From Oceanimonas pelagia (lineage in GTDB: Bacteria; Pseudomonadota; Gammaproteobacteria; Enterobacterales; Aeromonadaceae): a stretch of DNA of 64,000 nucleotides. The stretch lies in NCBI RefSeq assembly GCF_030849025.1, contig NZ_CP118224.1, positions 1,658,001 to 1,722,000 on the forward strand, in the 5' to 3' direction. Each line of letters begins with the position of its first letter. Position 1 is the stretch's first letter. This document shows positions 56,104 through 63,014 of this stretch, piece after piece. The position numbers were made by a program, and so were the translations under genes. A model generated the notes under the pieces. That model worked only from the letters and a program-made list of their open reading frames with translations. It did not search any database and had not been told where the DNA came from.

Positions 56104-56208
56104 ATGAAAAAACTGCATAACGTCAGCCCGCGACCCAATTCGGCTTTCGCACCCGCATTTTCATGCTTCCCGAAAGGCCATCGACCCACAATTCGGAAAC
56201 CGCAATGA
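56104..56208 (+). CDS. Possible leader peptide ahead of the SulP gene
   Basis: This 34-codon frame ([15 protein letters not shown] to the end RPTIRKPQ) lies wholly within the predicted leader of the SulP transcript. Its stop overlaps the SulP start as ATGA. It is basic, lacks a membrane segment and has only a poor ribosome site. The overlap suggests translational coupling or attenuation, but chance is possible. Confidence 0.3.
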
Positions 56209-57689
56209 TCTCCAAGCTCAAACAAACCTGGCTCTTTAACGTCAAGGGCGACGTGCTGGCCGGTCTGGTGGTGGCGCTCGCGCTGATCCCGGAAGCCATC
56301 GCCTTCTCCATCATCGCCGGCGTCGATCCCAAGATCGGCCTTTATGCGTCCTTCAGCATGGCGGTGGTGATCGCCTTTGCCGGCGGTCGCCCGGGCATGA
56401 TCTCCGCCGCCACCGGTGCCATGGCGCTGCTGATGGTGACCCTGGTGAAGGAGCACGGCCTGCAGTACCTGCTCGCCGCCACCCTGCTGTGCGGCCTGCT
56501 CCAGATAGTTATCGGCTACCTGCGCCTGGGCGAGCTGATGCGTTTTGTGTCCCGCTCGGTGGTAACCGGCTTCGTCAACGCCCTGGCCATTCTCATTTTC
56601 ATGGCCCAGCTGCCGGAGCTGACCAACGTCAGCTGGCACGTGTATGCCATGACCGCCGCCGGCCTGGGCATCATCTACCTGCTGCCACTGGTGCCCGGGG
56701 TGGGCAAGTTGCTGCCCTCACCGCTGGTGTGCATTGTCAGCCTCACCATCGTTGCCGTCGCCTTTGGCATTGACGTGCGCACCGTGGGCGACATGGGCGA
56801 GCTGCCCGATACCCTGCCGGTGTTCCTGTGGCCCGATGTACCGCTGAACCTGGACACCCTGGCCATTATCTTCCCCTATTCACTGTCGCTGGCGGTGGTG
56901 GGCCTGCTGGAGTCGATGATGACCGCCACCATCGTCGACGATCTCACCGACACCAAGAGCGACAAGAACCGCGAATGCAAGGGCCAGGGCCTCGCCAACA
57001 TCGCCACCGGCCTGCTCGGCGGCATGGCCGGCTGCGCCATGATCGGCCAGTCGGTGATCAACGTGAAGTCCGGCGGCCGCGGCCGGCTGTCCACCCTGGT
57101 GGCCGGGGTGGTGCTGCTCATTCTGGTGGTGTTCCTTGGCCCCTGGGTGTCGCAAATTCCCATGGCCGCCCTGGTGGCGGTGATGATCATGGTGTCGATC
57201 GGTACCTTCAGCTGGGCCTCCATTCGTGATCTCGGCACCCTGCCCAAAAGCAGCAGCCTGGTGATGATCGCCACCGTGGCGGTGGTGGTGTACAGCCACA
57301 ACCTGGCCTGGGGCGTGCTGGTGGGCGTGCTGCTCAGTGCCCTGTTCTTCGCCCACAAGGTGGGCCAGCTGCTGTATGTCGGCGCGGAAAAAACCGCCGA
57401 CGGCACCCGGGAATACCGGGTGGTGGGCCAGGTGTTCTTTACCTCGGCCGAGCAGTTTGTGGCCGCCTTTGACTTCAAGGAAGTGGTGGACAAGGTACGC
57501 ATCGATCTGAGCCGCGCCCACTTCTGGGACATTACCGCCATCAGCGCCCTCGACAAGGTGGTGATCACCTTCAAGCGGGAAGGCACAGAGGTGGAGATTA
57601 TTGGTCTGAATGAGGCCAGTGCCACCCTGGTGGATCGCTTTGCCGTGCATAATGATCCCCAGGCGGTCGAAAAGCTGATGGGCCACTAA
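56205..57689 (+). CDS. SulP-family inorganic anion transporter with STAS domain
   Basis: This 494-residue membrane protein has about 11-14 helices ([21 protein letters not shown] at the start, [15 protein letters not shown] and [20 protein letters not shown] in the middle). A C-terminal STAS domain has [21 protein letters not shown]. SulP proteins carry sulfate, bicarbonate or dicarboxylates; this short bacterial form could move bicarbonate or sulfate. I chose the ATG at 56205. A tandem universal stress protein follows 16 bases later. Confidence 0.9.
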
Positions 57690-57705
57690 CAGAGAGGGAA
57701 AGCAA

Positions 57706-58560
57706 ATGACCGAACACGTTCTGGCCTGTATCGACGGCTCCGGCCACGCGGCCACGGTATGCGACTGGGCCGGCTGGGCCAGCCAGCGCCTGCATGCGCC
57801 GCTGACCTTTGTGCATGTGCTCGACAAGGAAGCCACACCGGTGCAGGGCGATTTGAGCGGCAGCATCGGCCTGGGCAGCCAGGAACAGTTGCTGGCCGAG
57901 CTGGCCGAGCTGGATGCCCGCCGCGGCAAGCTGGCCAAGGAGCAGGGCCGGCTGATGCTGGCCGCGGCGCAGGAGCGCGCCCGGACCAGCGGCCTTGAAC
58001 ACACGCATACCCTGCAACGCCACGGTGCCCTGGTGGATACCCTGGTGGAACTTGAGCCCACCACCCGGCTGCTGGTGCTGGGTCGCCACGGCGAGGCGTC
58101 TGCCTCGGCCCATGCCCACCTGGGCAGCCATGTGGAGCAGGTGATCCGCGCCCTGCACCGGCCCATTCTGGTCACCCTGGGTGAGTATCACGCCCCGCAA
58201 AAAGTGATGCTGGCCTTTGACGGCAGTGCCACCACCCGCAAGGGCGTGGAAATGCTGGCCGCCAGCCCGCTGTTCAGGGGGCTGGAGCTGCATCTGGTGC
58301 TGGCCGGCGCCGACACCGACGACCACAGGGCCCAGCTGGAGTGGGCCCGCCAGCTGCTGGCCCAGGCCGGCCTCACCGCCGTGACCGCCATTGTGCCCGG
58401 CGAGGCGGACAAGGCGCTGACCGGTTACCAGCAGCAACAGGGCATGGATCTGATGATCATGGGCGCCTACGGCCACTCCCGCATTCGCCAGTGGCTGGTG
58501 GGCAGCACCACCACCGCCATGATCCGGGACGCCAGAGTACCGCTGCTGATCTTGCGCTAA
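57706..58560 (+). CDS. Tandem-domain universal stress protein
   Basis: This 284-residue cytoplasmic protein has two Usp domains. The first starts HVLACIDGSGHA and has a degenerate nucleotide loop (LGRHGEASASAHAHLGSHV). The second starts KVMLAFDGSATTR and keeps the ATP-binding pattern GAYGHSRIRQWLVGSTT. It follows the SulP gene by 16 bases, so it probably works with or responds to that transporter. Its stop overlaps the convergent mtnK stop. A paralogue begins near the window end. Confidence 0.9.
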   Translation: MTEHVLACIDGSGHAATVCDWAGWASQRLHAPLTFVHVLDKEATPVQGDLSGSIGLGSQEQLLAELAELDARRGKLAKEQGRLMLAAAQERARTSGLEHTHTLQRHGALVDTLVELEPTTRLLVLGRHGEASASAHAHLGSHVEQVIRALHRPILVTLGEYHAPQKVMLAFDGSATTRKGVEMLAASPLFRGLELHLVLAGADTDDHRAQLEWARQLLAQAGLTAVTAIVPGEADKALTGYQQQQGMDLMIMGAYGHSRIRQWLVGSTTTAMIRDARVPLLILR

Positions 58561-59825
58561 CGCCTTACTCGCTTCCACGCTCCGCGTGGGAGCGAGTCCA
58601 TTCCCTGATCCCCATTCCCGCTCACCGGCTCCCCCGCCGCCAGGCGCCTGAGCTCACCACACAGGCTGACCGGGCTCAGTGTAGCCGCCTCCAGGATCAA
58701 GCGCCGGCCCAGCCACAGCGCCTGACGCTGACAGTCCTGCCGCTGCGCCGGATCGGCAATGTCGTCGAGATCCGCCACATGGGCAATGCCAATGGTGCGC
58801 CGAATCATCTCGGTGCCGGCAAACCCCAGGCTGTCCCGCCATACCTGCTGCACCCACTCGCCGGCCACTCCGGGCTCGCCCAGCAGGGGCGCCGAGGTGG
58901 TCCTGGCGCGGGCCAGAAAGTCCTCGCTGAACGCCTTCCACAGCCGGCGCAGCTCCTCCACCCGGGCAAAGCGGGCCGCCTCGGCGGCGCCGGCGTCCCG
59001 CCAGCCGGACTGGGCGCAAAAGTTCAGCAACAGGTTGGCCATCACCAGACCCATGTCAAAGCCCATGGGGCCGTAAAAGCCGAACTCGGCGTCAAACACC
59101 CGGCATTCGCCCTCCCGCACAAACACCGAGCCGGTATGCAGATCGCCGTGCAGCAGGGCCTCGGCGTTACACTGAAAACGCAGCCGCAGGTGAGCCACCC
59201 TGTGTTTCAGCTCCCTGTCACGCCACAGCGCGGCGGCGTCGCTTTCAAGCCCGGGCGGCACCCGGTTGCGCTCACCGGGCCGGTAAGGATCGTGAAAAAA
59301 CACCGTGTCGGTGGTTGCACACAGCTCCGGGTTGGCCAGCCGCACCACCTCGGCCCGCTTGATGGCCGACGGCACCTGAAAGTCGGAAGTGCCATACAGT
59401 ACCCTTGCCAGGTGCTGCCCCAGGGCGGTTGCCACGCTTTCAGGCTCATCCGTCTCCAGCAGGGCCCGGCGCCATAGCTGCCAGTGGCTCAAATCCTCCA
59501 GCAGCAGGGCCGACAGCGTATCGTCATGATGCAACAACGCCAGGGTGCCGTGTGGACTCAGCTCGCCATGACGCAGCAGCACCCGCGCTTCCCGCGCCGC
59601 CCGCTGGCGGGTCAGCGGCCAGCCTTCGCCAATACAGCGAATGTAGGGCAGGGCCTGCTTGACGATCACTCCCTGCCCCTGCGGGTCGCTCACCCTGAAC
59701 ACCCGGTTGAGATTGCCGTCCCCCACCTCCTCGGCGCTCAGCGCCGCCCCGGCGGCAAAGCCCCGGTAGTGACGGCGGGCAAAGTCGATGGCGTCATTCA
59801 GGGTAAACTCGTGATAGGCCGTCAT
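58557..59825 (-). CDS. mtnK: S-methyl-5-thioribose kinase
   Basis: This 422-residue kinase phosphorylates methylthioribose in the methionine salvage pathway. It has an aminoglycoside-phosphotransferase-like fold with GDGNLNRVFRV (nucleotide loop), VIVKQALPYIR, LLHGDLHTGSVF (catalytic loop) and FDAEFGFYGPMGFD (metal motif). A GGAGGAA site precedes the ATG. The last 15 residues (GMDSLPRGAWKRVRR) come from a palindromic repeat rather than from the kinase domain. No other mtn gene is nearby. Confidence 0.92.
   Translation of the reverse strand: MTAYHEFTLNDAIDFARRHYRGFAAGAALSAEEVGDGNLNRVFRVSDPQGQGVIVKQALPYIRCIGEGWPLTRQRAAREARVLLRHGELSPHGTLALLHHDDTLSALLLEDLSHWQLWRRALLETDEPESVATALGQHLARVLYGTSDFQVPSAIKRAEVVRLANPELCATTDTVFFHDPYRPGERNRVPPGLESDAAALWRDRELKHRVAHLRLRFQCNAEALLHGDLHTGSVFVREGECRVFDAEFGFYGPMGFDMGLVMANLLLNFCAQSGWRDAGAAEAARFARVEELRRLWKAFSEDFLARARTTSAPLLGEPGVAGEWVQQVWRDSLGFAGTEMIRRTIGIAHVADLDDIADPAQRQDCQRQALWLGRRLILEAATLSPVSLCGELRRLAAGEPVSGNGDQGMDSLPRGAWKRVRR
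58568..58596. repeat. Dispersed-type palindromic repeat within the 3' end of mtnK
   Basis: CTCGCTTCCACG and CGTGGGAGCGAG flank a five-base loop with one G:T-type mismatch. The sequence resembles the widespread proteobacterial repeat whose chance translations read PRSAWERV or LPRGAWER. It may also act as the 3' hairpin of the convergent stress-protein gene. Confidence 0.65.
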
Positions 59826-59990
59826 GCCGTTCCTCCGCTGATGGTACTTTCCTTGTGGCTGTCTCCACTATAGATGCCGGCATTGAGCATGGGTCAAACG
59901 AACCATTTTCACCATTCCTGCTACCTTTTTGTAAGAAAGCGCCCGGCACACACCACTCATCAATACCAGCCATTGCCACGGAGTCCTGTG

Positions 59991-60953
59991 ATGCGAAACA
60001 TCCTGCCCCTGCTCGAGCAGACCGCCTTTCCGCCCCTTGTCCGCGACCGGACCGACACCCTGCAGGTGAACCTGGGTTACCGCTGCAACATGAAGTGTGC
60101 ACACTGCCATGTGGCCGCCGGCCCCCACCGCACCGAAATGATGGATGAGCAGACCCTGGCGCTGATCCCGCAGGTGCTGCAGGCCCGCGGCATTCACACG
60201 TTGGATCTCACCGGTGGCGCCCCCGAGCTGCACGGCGGCTTTCGCGACCTGGTGCGGCAGGCGTGCCGGCTGGGAGTCAGGGTGATCGACCGCTGCAACC
60301 TCACCGTACTGCTGGAGCCGGGGCAGGAAAACCTGGCCGCCTTTCTGGCGGAAAACCGGGTGGAGGTGGTGGCGTCCCTGCCCTGTTACGCCATGGAAAA
60401 CGTCGACCGGCAGCGCGGCAAGGGCAGCTTCGACAAAAGCATTGTCGCCCTGCAGCAGCTCAACCGACTGGGCTATGGCAAGCCCGGCTCGGAACTGGTG
60501 CTGAACCTGGTATACAACCCGCAGGGGCCCCGCCTGCCGCCCCCTCAGGCCGAACTGGAAGCCGCCTACCGGCACGAGCTGAAACGCCACTTCGACATCG
60601 AGTTCAACCAGCTGTTTGCCCTGGCCAACATGCCCATCAAACGCTTTGGCGATTCCCTTGTGAGCACCGGTCAGTTTCACGACTACATGCGCCTGCTGAC
60701 GAACAACTTCAGTGCCGCCAACCTGACCAGCGTCATGTGCCGGAACCTTGTCAGCGTGGACTGGCAGGGCTACCTGTATGACTGTGACTTTAACCAGCAG
60801 CTTGGCCTGCCCCTGTCCGGCCGGGGCCGGCCACACCTGCGGGAGCTGTTGCAACGGGATTACGCCGGCTGCCCCGTTCGCGTGGCCGGTCACTGCCATG
60901 GCTGCACCGCCGGTCAGGGCAGCAGTTGCGGTGGTGCCCTGGAGGAGCAGTAA
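59991..60953 (+). CDS. arsS: ArsS-type radical SAM/Cys-rich protein
   Basis: This 320-residue protein has the radical-SAM cluster motif CX3CX2C at Cys32, Cys36 and Cys39 (YRCNMKCAHCH), LDLTGGAPELH, and a C-terminal cysteine-rich domain HCHGCTAGQGSSCGGA. That layout defines the arsenosugar-biosynthesis ArsS family (rSAM/SeCys group). Some members have selenocysteine in the tail; all are Cys here. ArsS is thought to join the SAM ribosyl group to dimethylarsenite. The ATG at 59991 has a GGAG site. The stop overlaps the next start (TAATG). No arsM is visible. Confidence 0.87.
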   Translation: MRNILPLLEQTAFPPLVRDRTDTLQVNLGYRCNMKCAHCHVAAGPHRTEMMDEQTLALIPQVLQARGIHTLDLTGGAPELHGGFRDLVRQACRLGVRVIDRCNLTVLLEPGQENLAAFLAENRVEVVASLPCYAMENVDRQRGKGSFDKSIVALQQLNRLGYGKPGSELVLNLVYNPQGPRLPPPQAELEAAYRHELKRHFDIEFNQLFALANMPIKRFGDSLVSTGQFHDYMRLLTNNFSAANLTSVMCRNLVSVDWQGYLYDCDFNQQLGLPLSGRGRPHLRELLQRDYAGCPVRVAGHCHGCTAGQGSSCGGALEEQ

Positions 60954-61609
60954 TGAGCCTCAGCATTGTTATTCCTGCCCTGAACGAGGCTAGGGCCTTG
61001 CCCGCCACCCTGGCGACCCTGCCGAAGCAGGCCGAGGTCATCGTCGTGGATGGCAACAGCAGCGACGACACGGCTCGCCTGGCCAGGCGGTGGGGGGCCA
61101 CTCAGATCACCACGCCACCGGGACGGGCGCGACAAATGAACGCCGGCGCCGCCGCGGCACGGGGCGAATATCTGCTGTTTCTGCACGCCGACACCCTGCT
61201 GCCCGGCCAGACGGCACGACTTGTCACCACCGCCCTGCAACATCACCACTGGGGCCGCTTCGATGTGAGCCTGCAGGGCCGCCATCCCATGCTGGCAGTG
61301 ATCGGCGCCATGATGAACCTGCGCTCCCGGCTGACCGGCATTGCCACCGGCGATCAGGGCCTGTTTATGCGCCGAAGTGCCTTTATGGCGGTAGGCGGCT
61401 TTCCCGAACAACCGCTGATGGAAGACATAGCGCTCAGCAAACGGCTCAAGGAGTTGGGGCCGCCGGCCTGTTTGCGACAGCGGGTGATCACGTCGGGCCG
61501 GCGCTGGGAGAACCACGGCGTGTGGCGCACCATCTGGCTGATGTGGCGGCTGCGGTTTGCCTACTGGCGCGGCGCCGAGCCGCAGCGGCTGGCGGAGCGG
61601 TACCGGTGA
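60953..61609 (+). CDS. Family 2 glycosyltransferase, rSAM/selenodomain-associated (transferase 2)
   Basis: This 218-residue GT-A glycosyltransferase begins MSLSIVIPALNEARALPATL and has VVDGNSSDDTARLA, LFLHADTLLP (DXD-like) and GDQGLFMRRSAFMAVGGFP with MEDIALSKRL. It matches the group that accompanies ArsS-like radical SAM proteins. No membrane helix is evident. It is coupled to arsS by TAATG and to the next gene by GTGA. The sugar and acceptor are unknown. Confidence 0.87.
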   Translation: MSLSIVIPALNEARALPATLATLPKQAEVIVVDGNSSDDTARLARRWGATQITTPPGRARQMNAGAAAARGEYLLFLHADTLLPGQTARLVTTALQHHHWGRFDVSLQGRHPMLAVIGAMMNLRSRLTGIATGDQGLFMRRSAFMAVGGFPEQPLMEDIALSKRLKELGPPACLRQRVITSGRRWENHGVWRTIWLMWRLRFAYWRGAEPQRLAERYR

Positions 61610-62220
61610 ACACCCGCATGCTGGTGTTCGCCAAGGCGCCCCTGCCCGGCCAGGCCAAAACCCGGCTGGTTCCGACCCTGGGCGCCAAGGGCGCCGCCCG
61701 CCTGGCCCATGCCATGCTCAATACCACCCTGGCCCACGCCCTGGCCGCCGGACTTGGCCCGGTGGAATTGTGCATGAGCCCGGCCCCGGCACACCCCGAC
61801 TGGCGAGCCTGTCGCCTGCCGGCGGGCGTAGTGCAACGTGACCAGGGTGAAGGCGATTTGGGGGCACGCATGGCCCGGGCCGCCCGACGCGGCCTGGCAC
61901 GCAACGGGGCCGTGCTGCTGGTGGGCACCGACTGCCCGCAACTGAGCCCGGCCCTGCTGCACCAGGCGGCGACACGGCTGACGGATTGCGACGCGCTGCT
62001 GTACCCCACCCGGGACGGCGGCTACGCCCTGCTGGGCCTGCGCCGGTTTTCTGCCACCCTGTTCGAGCACATGCCCTGGAGCACCGACCGGGTGGCCGAG
62101 CTGACCCGCCGGCGGCTCACGGCCCTGGGCTGGTGCTGGCGTGAAGGGGAAACCCTGCTGGATATTGACGAGCCGGGGGATCTGTTTCAGTTGCCGGGAA
62201 GCTGGGTAACTCCATGCTGA
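61606..62220 (+). CDS. DUF2064 nucleotidyl/glycosyl transferase, rSAM/selenodomain-associated (transferase 1)
   Basis: This 204-residue GT-A-fold protein of the DUF2064 family has MLVFAKAPLPGQAKTRLVPT, QGEGDLGARMA, LLVGTDCPQLSP, YPTRDGGYALLGL and a LDIDEPGDL ending, resembling nucleotidyltransferases. The GTG at 61606 overlaps the previous stop; an ATG four codons later is possible. It overlaps the next gene by seven bases. It may activate a sugar for the glycosyltransferase; this is inference. Confidence 0.85.
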   Translation: MNTRMLVFAKAPLPGQAKTRLVPTLGAKGAARLAHAMLNTTLAHALAAGLGPVELCMSPAPAHPDWRACRLPAGVVQRDQGEGDLGARMARAARRGLARNGAVLLVGTDCPQLSPALLHQAATRLTDCDALLYPTRDGGYALLGLRRFSATLFEHMPWSTDRVAELTRRRLTALGWCWREGETLLDIDEPGDLFQLPGSWVTPC

Positions 62221-63014
62221 ACGAATTTGAACCCTGGCTGCGGCTGGGCAGCTTTGCCGGCCTGTTGCTGTTGTTTCTGCTGTGGGAGCACTACGCGCCC
62301 CGCCGGCCACAGCGGCAACGGCGCGGACCGCGCTGGCTGCGGCACCTGGCCCTGGCCGGCCTCAACACCCTGCTGGTGCGTGCCCTGTTTCCCCTGGCTG
62401 CGGTGGGAGCGGCACTGCTGGCGGCGGAGCGGAACTGGGGAGTACTGGCCTGGCTCGCCCTGCCCGACTGGCTGGCCCTGCCACTAACGGTGCTGTTGCT
62501 GGACTTGCTCATTTACTGGCAGCACCGGCTGTTTCACCGGGTGCCGCTGCTGTGGCGGCTGCACCGGATGCACCATACCGATACCGAGCTGGATGCCACC
62601 ACAGGGGTGCGCTTTCATCCGCTGGAAATCCTGCTGTCCATGGCAATCAAGCTGGCAGGGGTATTGCTGCTGGGAGCTTCCCCGCTGGCGGTGCTGGTGT
62701 TTGAAGTGCTGCTCAATGCCACCTCTCTGTTCAACCATGCCAATATCCATCTGCCCGCCAAGGTGGACGCGGTACTGCGGCGGCTGCTGGTTACCCCGGA
62801 CATGCACCGGGTGCATCATTCGGTTTACCCGCAGGAAACCGACAGCAACTTTGGCTTCAACCTCAGCTGCTGGGATCGCTGGCTGGGCAGCTACCGGGCC
62901 CGGCCTCGGGATGGCCACCGGCACATGCGGCTGGGGCTCAAGGAATTTCGCGCTCCCGAAGAGCGGGGCCTGCTGCGCCTGCTCACCCAGCCCTTTCGCC
63001 GCACCGGCATATGA
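62214..63014 (+). CDS. Fatty acid hydroxylase/sterol desaturase family membrane protein
   Basis: This 266-residue membrane di-iron enzyme has the family histidine clusters HRLFH, HRMHH, a middle HANIH and HRVHHS. At least four hydrophobic segments are present (FAGLLLLFLLWEH, TLLVRALFPLAAVGAALLA, LPLTVLLLDLLIYW, LAGVLLLGASPLAVLVFEVL). Such enzymes hydroxylate or desaturate lipids. Overlap with the preceding gene places it in the ArsS operon, hinting that the product is a lipid or is lipid-attached. It ends the operon. Confidence 0.88.
   Translation: MLNEFEPWLRLGSFAGLLLLFLLWEHYAPRRPQRQRRGPRWLRHLALAGLNTLLVRALFPLAAVGAALLAAERNWGVLAWLALPDWLALPLTVLLLDLLIYWQHRLFHRVPLLWRLHRMHHTDTELDATTGVRFHPLEILLSMAIKLAGVLLLGASPLAVLVFEVLLNATSLFNHANIHLPAKVDAVLRRLLVTPDMHRVHHSVYPQETDSNFGFNLSCWDRWLGSYRARPRDGHRHMRLGLKEFRAPEERGLLRLLTQPFRRTGI

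Follow-up and report, generated by a model that had tools for sequence, protein, structure and literature searches.

In a 64,000-nt stretch of the Oceanimonas pelagia genome (GCF_030849025.1, NZ_CP118224.1:1,658,001-1,722,000; the whole stretch is called the window here), the gene for the radical S-adenosylmethionine (SAM) enzyme ArsS opens a real, conserved operon of the known arsenosugar type that carries two additions, a membrane hydroxylase gene at its end and a divergent gene for a 5-methylthioribose kinase (MtnK). The enzymes encoded here probably link arsenic to ribose and prepare the resulting sugar for transfer by activating it; the adjacent kinase, an enzyme of methionine recycling, may supply a missing step of the arsenosugar pathway. 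We put at roughly one in two the probability that mtnK on one side and the genes for ArsS, a family-2 glycosyltransferase (GT2), a putative nucleotidyltransferase (NTase) and the hydroxylase on the other form a single divergent five-gene unit that makes and activates a 5-substituted ribose; within this reading, the pathway substrate is most likely 5-deoxy-5-dimethylarsinoyl-ribose. What is new in the analysis, and most open to testing, is the captured kinase.

An earlier note, made from the sequence alone, had described the four genes as a coupled operon, and the gene identities that it proposed are borne out by family scores above the curated cut-offs. ArsS matches TIGR04167 over its full length (profile positions 2-303 of 303) with 451.8 bits (cut-off, 300), and its radical SAM motif reads CNMKCAHC in the translated frame. 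GT2 reaches 279.7 bits with TIGR04283 (cut-off, 182), and D33, G34, S36, D38, H78, and D80 are among the invariant columns in an alignment of nine members. The third protein scores 192.1 bits with TIGR04282 (cut-off, 134), while the hydroxylase scores 105.7 bits with PF04116 (cut-off, 31) and contains the His-rich motifs. The frame overlaps reported in that note also hold when the sequence is read together with the list of open reading frames (ORFs): the TAA of arsS shares one base with the GT2 ATG at position 60953 (TAATG), the TGA of the GT2 frame overlaps the GTG start at 61606 by four bases (GTGA), and the third frame, which also ends in TGA, overlaps the hydroxylase ATG at 62214 by seven bases, with the hydroxylase stop codon ending at 63014. 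An ATG at 59874 would extend the open arsS frame in the 5' direction, and the start at 59991 is preceded by an ACGGAG box common to four species. The four-gene boundaries, in turn, were drawn too narrowly, as they left out the divergent mtnK gene.

We scanned 120 relatives, some of them drafts, and defined a genus set of 23 genomes that includes the window's own (G000, a single contig of 3.59 Mb). TIGR04167 scores above its cut-off in 17 of the 120 relatives, all of them within the genus (17 of the 23 genus genomes). A close hydroxylase, with at least 64% identity to the window protein, is present in 15 of the 23 genomes, all of which are ArsS carriers, and in none of the six non-carriers; the carriers that do not have one are G012 and G021. 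The order ArsS-GT2-TIGR04282-hydroxylase, whose survey in relatives had been suggested in the earlier note, is intact on a single contig in 13 genus genomes, including the window, and compatible in two more (G015 and G018), where a contig end cuts the operon and the remaining genes fit the same order. Since this order is kept in these genomes, we do not regard the operon as a chance arrangement. The hydroxylase is a real operon partner, linked in 15 of the 17 ArsS-bearing genus members, and an unlinked hydroxylase in close relatives, the result that was to refute the proposal, was mostly not seen, the gene being missing only from G012 and G021. Candidate broken copies of the G006 hydroxylase and of the G009, G004, and G001 kinases were rejected, given that the apparent stops lie at the match ends and the frames are full length.

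Each of the 17 ArsS carriers has a homologue of the window MtnK, which is split in the case of G012, whereas among the six non-carriers the gene is truncated in G016 and absent from the other five. In 15 of the 17 carriers, including the window, mtnK lies divergently at the arsS locus, directly adjoining arsS in six genomes and separated from it by a gene for an extracytoplasmic function (ECF) σ factor in nine (L061, L062, L064, L065, L067, and L072 to L075); the window has no such gene at this place. The methylthioribose 1-phosphate isomerase-type protein MtnA (TIGR00512), which acts directly after MtnK in methionine salvage, was found in only two of the 23 genus genomes, G021 and G012 (as two frames), and these are exactly the carriers in which mtnK stands beside mtnA and not at arsS; in G012, mtnK and mtnA are each split between frames. 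No TIGR00512 match at an E value of 0.001 was obtained in G000 or, overall, in 21 of the 23 genus genomes, among them all 15 with mtnK at arsS. In a tree of MtnK sequences (omitting a broken copy in G437), the 15 orphan kinases group with the truncated G016 copy in a single clade (99/98), whose neighbor is the mtnA-linked G021/G012 pair. Genome G016 has no ArsS above the cut-off; its mtnK remnant (L202:5549-6382) aligns over about residues 1-227, and no other gene of the unit was found in the 11 kb around it, so that the remnant is likely a relic of a lost operon. Taken together, the clade, the locus, and the distribution of mtnA suggest that mtnK moved to arsS once and stays with it.

The window MtnK scores 422.1 bits with TIGR01767 (cut-off, 275) and 253.6 bits with the methylthioribose kinase of PDB entry 2olc, the motifs HGDLHTGS...DAE are present in 15 of 15 orphans, whose frames are all open to residue 394 or beyond, and the window copy also has the motif RRTIGIAHV.

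Table 1. Genes and regions of the divergent arsS-mtnK locus and its surroundings, in window coordinates
Feature	Length	Position	Strand	Family matches and remarks
ArsS radical SAM enzyme	320 aa	59991-60953	+	TIGR04167, PF12345, PF04055; CX3CX2C motif, Cys-rich C terminus
TIGR04283 GT2	218 aa	60953-61609	+	TIGR04283, PF00535
TIGR04282/DUF2064 protein	204 aa	61606-62220	+	best read as a sugar-1-phosphate nucleotidyltransferase
Membrane di-iron FA_hydroxylase/sterol desaturase family enzyme	266 aa	62214-63014	+	PF04116
MtnK-type 5-methylthioribose kinase		58557-59825	-	TIGR01767; divergent from arsS
Divergent intergenic region	165 bp	59826-59990		conserved blocks 59863-59881 and 59918-59938
SulP-type transporter and Usp-domain gene		56163-58560		upstream
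Small protein with signal-like N terminus	88 aa	63074-63340	-

To place the kinase in a pathway, we propose the following route. ArsS would add the 5'-deoxyadenosyl group of SAM to dimethylarsenite, as the cited literature describes for the family, and the housekeeping nucleosidase MtnN could then remove adenine to leave free arseno-ribose. The gene for this second step is present: G000 has three PF01048 proteins, which score as MtnN (TIGR01704, 302 bits; cut-off, 73.8), the uridine phosphorylase Udp, and DeoD, with no MtnP among the PF01048 matches of this genome. MtnK, judging from its known chemistry and its orphan status, would phosphorylate C1 to arseno-ribose 1-phosphate, from which the TIGR04282 protein, judging from its fold, would make a nucleoside diphosphate (NDP) sugar. 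GT2 may move this sugar to an acceptor, e.g., glycerol or phosphatidylglycerol, and in the weakest step the membrane hydroxylase might oxidize a lipid, be it the arsenosugar lipid or one of the membrane around the enzyme. In its full form, the proposal states that a captured methionine-salvage kinase makes 5-deoxy-5-dimethylarsinoyl-ribose-1-phosphate, that the TIGR04282 protein turns it into an arsenic-bearing nucleotide sugar, and that a marine bacterium without ArsM builds glycosides, perhaps hydroxylated glycolipids, from scavenged dimethylarsenic; we consider this complete version tentative and somewhat more likely to be wrong than right.

The activation step would depend on the third gene of the operon, which had been counted as one of two transferases, a description that needs correcting. 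NCBIfam names TIGR04282 a glycosyltransferase, whereas the fold neighbors that we found are mostly nucleotidyltransferases. The AlphaFold model of the protein has a predicted local distance difference test (pLDDT) score of 93.7, and its closest solved structures in Foldseek are 3cgx (“putative nucleotide-diphospho-sugar transferase”), MM2497 (a probable nucleotidyltransferase), Rv2983, and 3-phospho-D-glycerate guanylyltransferase. Further matches include many sugar nucleotidyltransferases, and a single named glycosyltransferase appears among the best 50, at rank 40. The protein is thus best read as resembling a sugar-1-phosphate nucleotidyltransferase, and a sugar 1-phosphate would suit such a fold as substrate.

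In other clades, MtnP could take the place of MtnN plus MtnK. According to the part of PMC6079011 available to us, 5-deoxyadenosine can reach the same 1-phosphate either by a phosphorylase or by a nucleosidase and a kinase. To see which genes accompany arsS elsewhere, we turned to the class, where 183 of 369 genomes match ArsS at 1e-50. From the matches listed, we fetched 80 ArsS loci from other families, mostly one per family and with longer contigs favored. Neighboring genes were counted with per-family bit thresholds of our own choosing, and of the neighbor clusters the larger ones were considered, with annotation for some of them. All 12 Psychrobacter loci have MtnP close to arsS, as do 2 of 10 other named loci and 3 of the 80 class loci, and no locus counted held MtnP and MtnK together. 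Measured between ORF ends, the two genes share a strand and are no more than 33 bp apart in L035, L172, and L186; mtnP lies 728 bp downstream of arsS in L150 and divergently beside it in L049. In Psychrobacter it is on the strand opposite to arsS at a distance of 1.5 to 6.8 kb (12 of 12 loci), and on a Burkholderia glumae plasmid (L238) it shares one run with TIGR04283 and TIGR04282, some 6 kb away from arsS. Burkholderia accounts for 47 of the 52 plasmid records with ArsS.

Several observations weigh against the five-gene reading and its arsenic substrate. The gene content leaves the source of dimethylarsenite unexplained, as no ArsM was found: the best match to NF008823 in G000 reaches 61.8 bits (cut-off, 263) and scores as UbiE (471.4 bits; cut-off, 378), and no match above 40 bits was obtained when the 23 genus genomes were queried with an Oceanobacter ArsM, the best match in G000 scoring as UbiG. 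This is a minority condition but not a unique one, given that among 80 ArsS-bearing genomes of the class NF008823 matched at 1e-20 in 63 (28 of them above the cut-off) and in none of the other 17. Uptake of dimethylarsenic, an unrecognized methyltransferase, and another substrate may each account for the gap. Nor does the kinase link appear general: only 10 of the 369 class genomes have MtnK, and it was found at arsS in none of the 80 class loci, 12 Psychrobacter loci, or 10 other named loci. MtnP, too, was seen in only 3 of the 80 class loci. We also considered a retuned substrate pocket in the kinase and rejected it, since the 15 orphan MtnKs differ from ten others by only one fixed residue, V142 for T (in a comparison that omits the truncated G016 copy and in which eight of the ten others have no mtnA within about 1.5 kb). 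The plasmid relatives of the hydroxylase, described below, count in the same direction where specificity is concerned.

The lack of any sign of a retuned pocket bears on an alternative in which the operon is a standard arsenosugar operon and MtnK a mere neighbor that clears the 5-deoxyribose or methylthioribose produced through ArsS and through polyamine metabolism. The portion of PMC6079011 that we could consult reports that the MtnK-like kinase DrdK accepts both 5-deoxyribose and methylthioribose, so MtnK might serve by-product disposal, and the orphan kinases retain the canonical residues. Such disposal, however, needs an isomerase (MtnA or DrdI), and no TIGR00512 match was obtained in any of the genomes with mtnK at arsS; moreover, the six genus genomes without arsS have no mtnK (five) or a truncated one (one) despite other radical-SAM-like matches. 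We regard this alternative as unlikely. Less probable still, and in our view improbable, is a role outside arsenic chemistry, in which an ArsS without ArsM adenosylates another nucleophile, e.g., a methylated selenium or sulfur species, and the product is the corresponding 5-substituted ribose glycoside. The missing ArsM, here and in the 17 class genomes, would fit such a role, as would methylthioribose being the natural substrate of MtnK. A TIGR03169 oxidoreductase (“N-terminal to SelD”) lies near arsS in some other loci, including those of G012 and G021, and some members of the ArsS family are selenoproteins, as stated in the accessible part of PMC13188914. On the other side, the window ArsS scores far above its family cut-off, and dimethylarsenic could possibly be taken up from outside. 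Selenium itself, which the earlier note had raised and which the name “(seleno)protein” brings to mind, was not retained for the window: its ArsS frame encodes Cys and is not interrupted by a stop codon, and the annotated genes next to the operon (SulP, Usp, and MtnK) are not selenium genes, although no search targeted at selenium genes was made.

The hydroxylase recurs beside ArsS but is not ArsS specific. It is found within the fetched stretch in 20 of the 80 class ArsS loci, always on the arsS strand, and not in the other 60; none of the 12 Psychrobacter loci holds it, and 2 of the 10 other named loci do. The His motifs HRLFH..LHRMHH and HRVHH are kept in 35 of the 36 ArsS-locus relatives listed, the exception being the partial frame of L141. 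An initial tree with 36 ArsS-linked sequences and 11 genus paralogues, which omitted L141 and the duplicates L032 and L033 (of L068 and L066, respectively), put the ArsS-linked sequences on one side of a branch (90/92), which had suggested an ArsS-specific subfamily. We dropped this claim once plasmid homologues with 54 to 58% identity were found to nest inside the ArsS-linked group. The second tree, which additionally omitted L062, L064, L069, L071, L072, L074, L203, L204, and nine of the eleven genus paralogues (keeping L205 and L206), contains six label changes, and 0% of 200 bootstrap trees have a single one, with many branches weak.

Among ten plasmid stretches examined away from ArsS runs, six are islands of genes for copper, mercury, or cation efflux, in which the neighbors are copper or heavy-metal ATPases, multicopper oxidases, cation diffusion facilitator proteins, mer genes, cupredoxins, ArsR/SmtB regulators, and VTT proteins. 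These stretches come from marine plasmids (L234, L235, L236, L239, L240, and L244), often with VTT, DUF411, or ArsR/SmtB genes. None of the 52 ArsS plasmid records belongs to the six genera of the metal islands, a comparison made at the level of plasmids. The relatives in these islands are perhaps metal-stress lipid enzymes. A Thiodictyon plasmid, in turn, has GT2-hydroxylase-arsS-TIGR04282 in a single run, and on a Pseudoalteromonas plasmid a hydroxylase relative follows a CDP-alcohol phosphatidyltransferase gene. The latter stretch (L242:1-6498), with genes for a TVP38-FAD oxidoreductase, DUF547, an ABC transporter, the CDP-alcohol phosphatidyltransferase, and the hydroxylase, looks like an ArsS-free sister cluster. 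With the window protein at 86.1 bits against a cut-off of 475, the hydroxylase is not a member of the OlsE model, and its AlphaFold model, built with five sequences, is of low quality (pLDDT, 60.1).

These data bear on two accounts of the hydroxylase that we hold possible to the same degree, each with odds somewhat below even. One keeps the view of the earlier note minus selenium: GT2 would place the sugar on phosphatidylglycerol, and the hydroxylase would complete the resulting arsenosugar phospholipid. It draws on the overlap of the hydroxylase frame with the operon, its presence in 15 of 17 carriers and its invariant strand in the class loci, the Thiodictyon run, the CDP-alcohol phosphatidyltransferase neighbor in Pseudoalteromonas, and the detection of arsenosugar phospholipids in the cultured alga Picocystis (PMC7345539, consulted in part). 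The majority of class loci and all Psychrobacter loci without a hydroxylase in the fetched stretch speak against it, and the nested metal-island relatives, which no bootstrap tree separates even though many branches are weak, leave unsupported the idea that the hydroxylase alone points to an arsenosugar lipid. The other account takes the protein for a general membrane-lipid hydroxylase of metal stress that joined the arsS operon for coregulation and does not touch the arsenical. This agrees with the metal islands and with the 0 of 52 ArsS plasmid records from their genera, although that comparison covers only the plasmids of these hosts; on the other hand, the frame overlap and the same gene order in 15 of the 15 genus members that have the hydroxylase suggest a tighter role. 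Given that the hydroxylase recurs by ArsS, yet has relatives in plasmid metal islands without detected ArsS, a lipid product is plausible only. Our reading is that the hydroxylase modifies membrane lipids under metal and metalloid stress; its substrate here may be either an arsenosugar lipid or the membrane itself.

Compared with known systems, the locus shares with the ArsM-ArsS arsenosugar pathway of Synechocystis PCC 6803 (Xue et al. 2019 and Cheng et al. 2021, with ArsS activity as cited in PMC8552651 and PMC12159101) an ArsS-family radical SAM enzyme and the expected arsenic-adenosine nucleoside product; it differs in that no ArsM was found, the NTase and GT2 frames overlap in a run with arsS, and MtnK and the hydroxylase are added. 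All three families of the NCBIfam “arsenosugar biosynthesis” set (TIGR04167, TIGR04283, and TIGR04282) are present above their curated cut-offs. With 5-deoxyribose disposal (drdK-drdI-drdA) and methionine salvage (mtnK-mtnA), it has in common an MtnK-type kinase for 5-substituted ribose, but here the kinase stands beside arsS and no MtnA-type isomerase was found in the genome. The ornithine-lipid hydroxylase OlsE (NF052566) is, like the window hydroxylase, a membrane di-iron enzyme of the FA_hydroxylase superfamily.

Among the matches listed in the literature searched, which covers few subscription journals, we found no paper describing this gene set and none that explains, gene by gene, the route from the ArsS nucleoside to an arsenosugar. 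Arsenosugars are major arsenic forms in marine algae according to the accessible part of PMC13197290, so the proposed pathway, if true, would help explain their origin and correct the name of a widespread family, TIGR04282. MtnP in other clades, the orphan MtnK here, and the TIGR04282 fold together predict arseno-ribose-1-phosphate followed by an NDP-arsenosugar, intermediates that are directly assayable with few proteins. If genomes without ArsM do encode arsenosugar synthesis, their bacteria would recycle methylarsenic from the environment.

Finally, the region between mtnK and arsS contains two conserved blocks. The one at 59918-59938 is identical in four of the four genus species aligned, and the one at 59863-59881 is slightly different in one of them; a search of further genus loci did not find the former. 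The region may contain a shared promoter or σ factor motif, for which it is a candidate. Beyond the kinase, the SulP-type transporter and the Usp-domain gene were not found in the stretches fetched for other genus loci but are kept in the three nearest relatives. Past the hydroxylase, the 88-amino-acid protein has no Pfam match at 0.001, and its gene is likewise kept beside the operon in the three nearest relatives.

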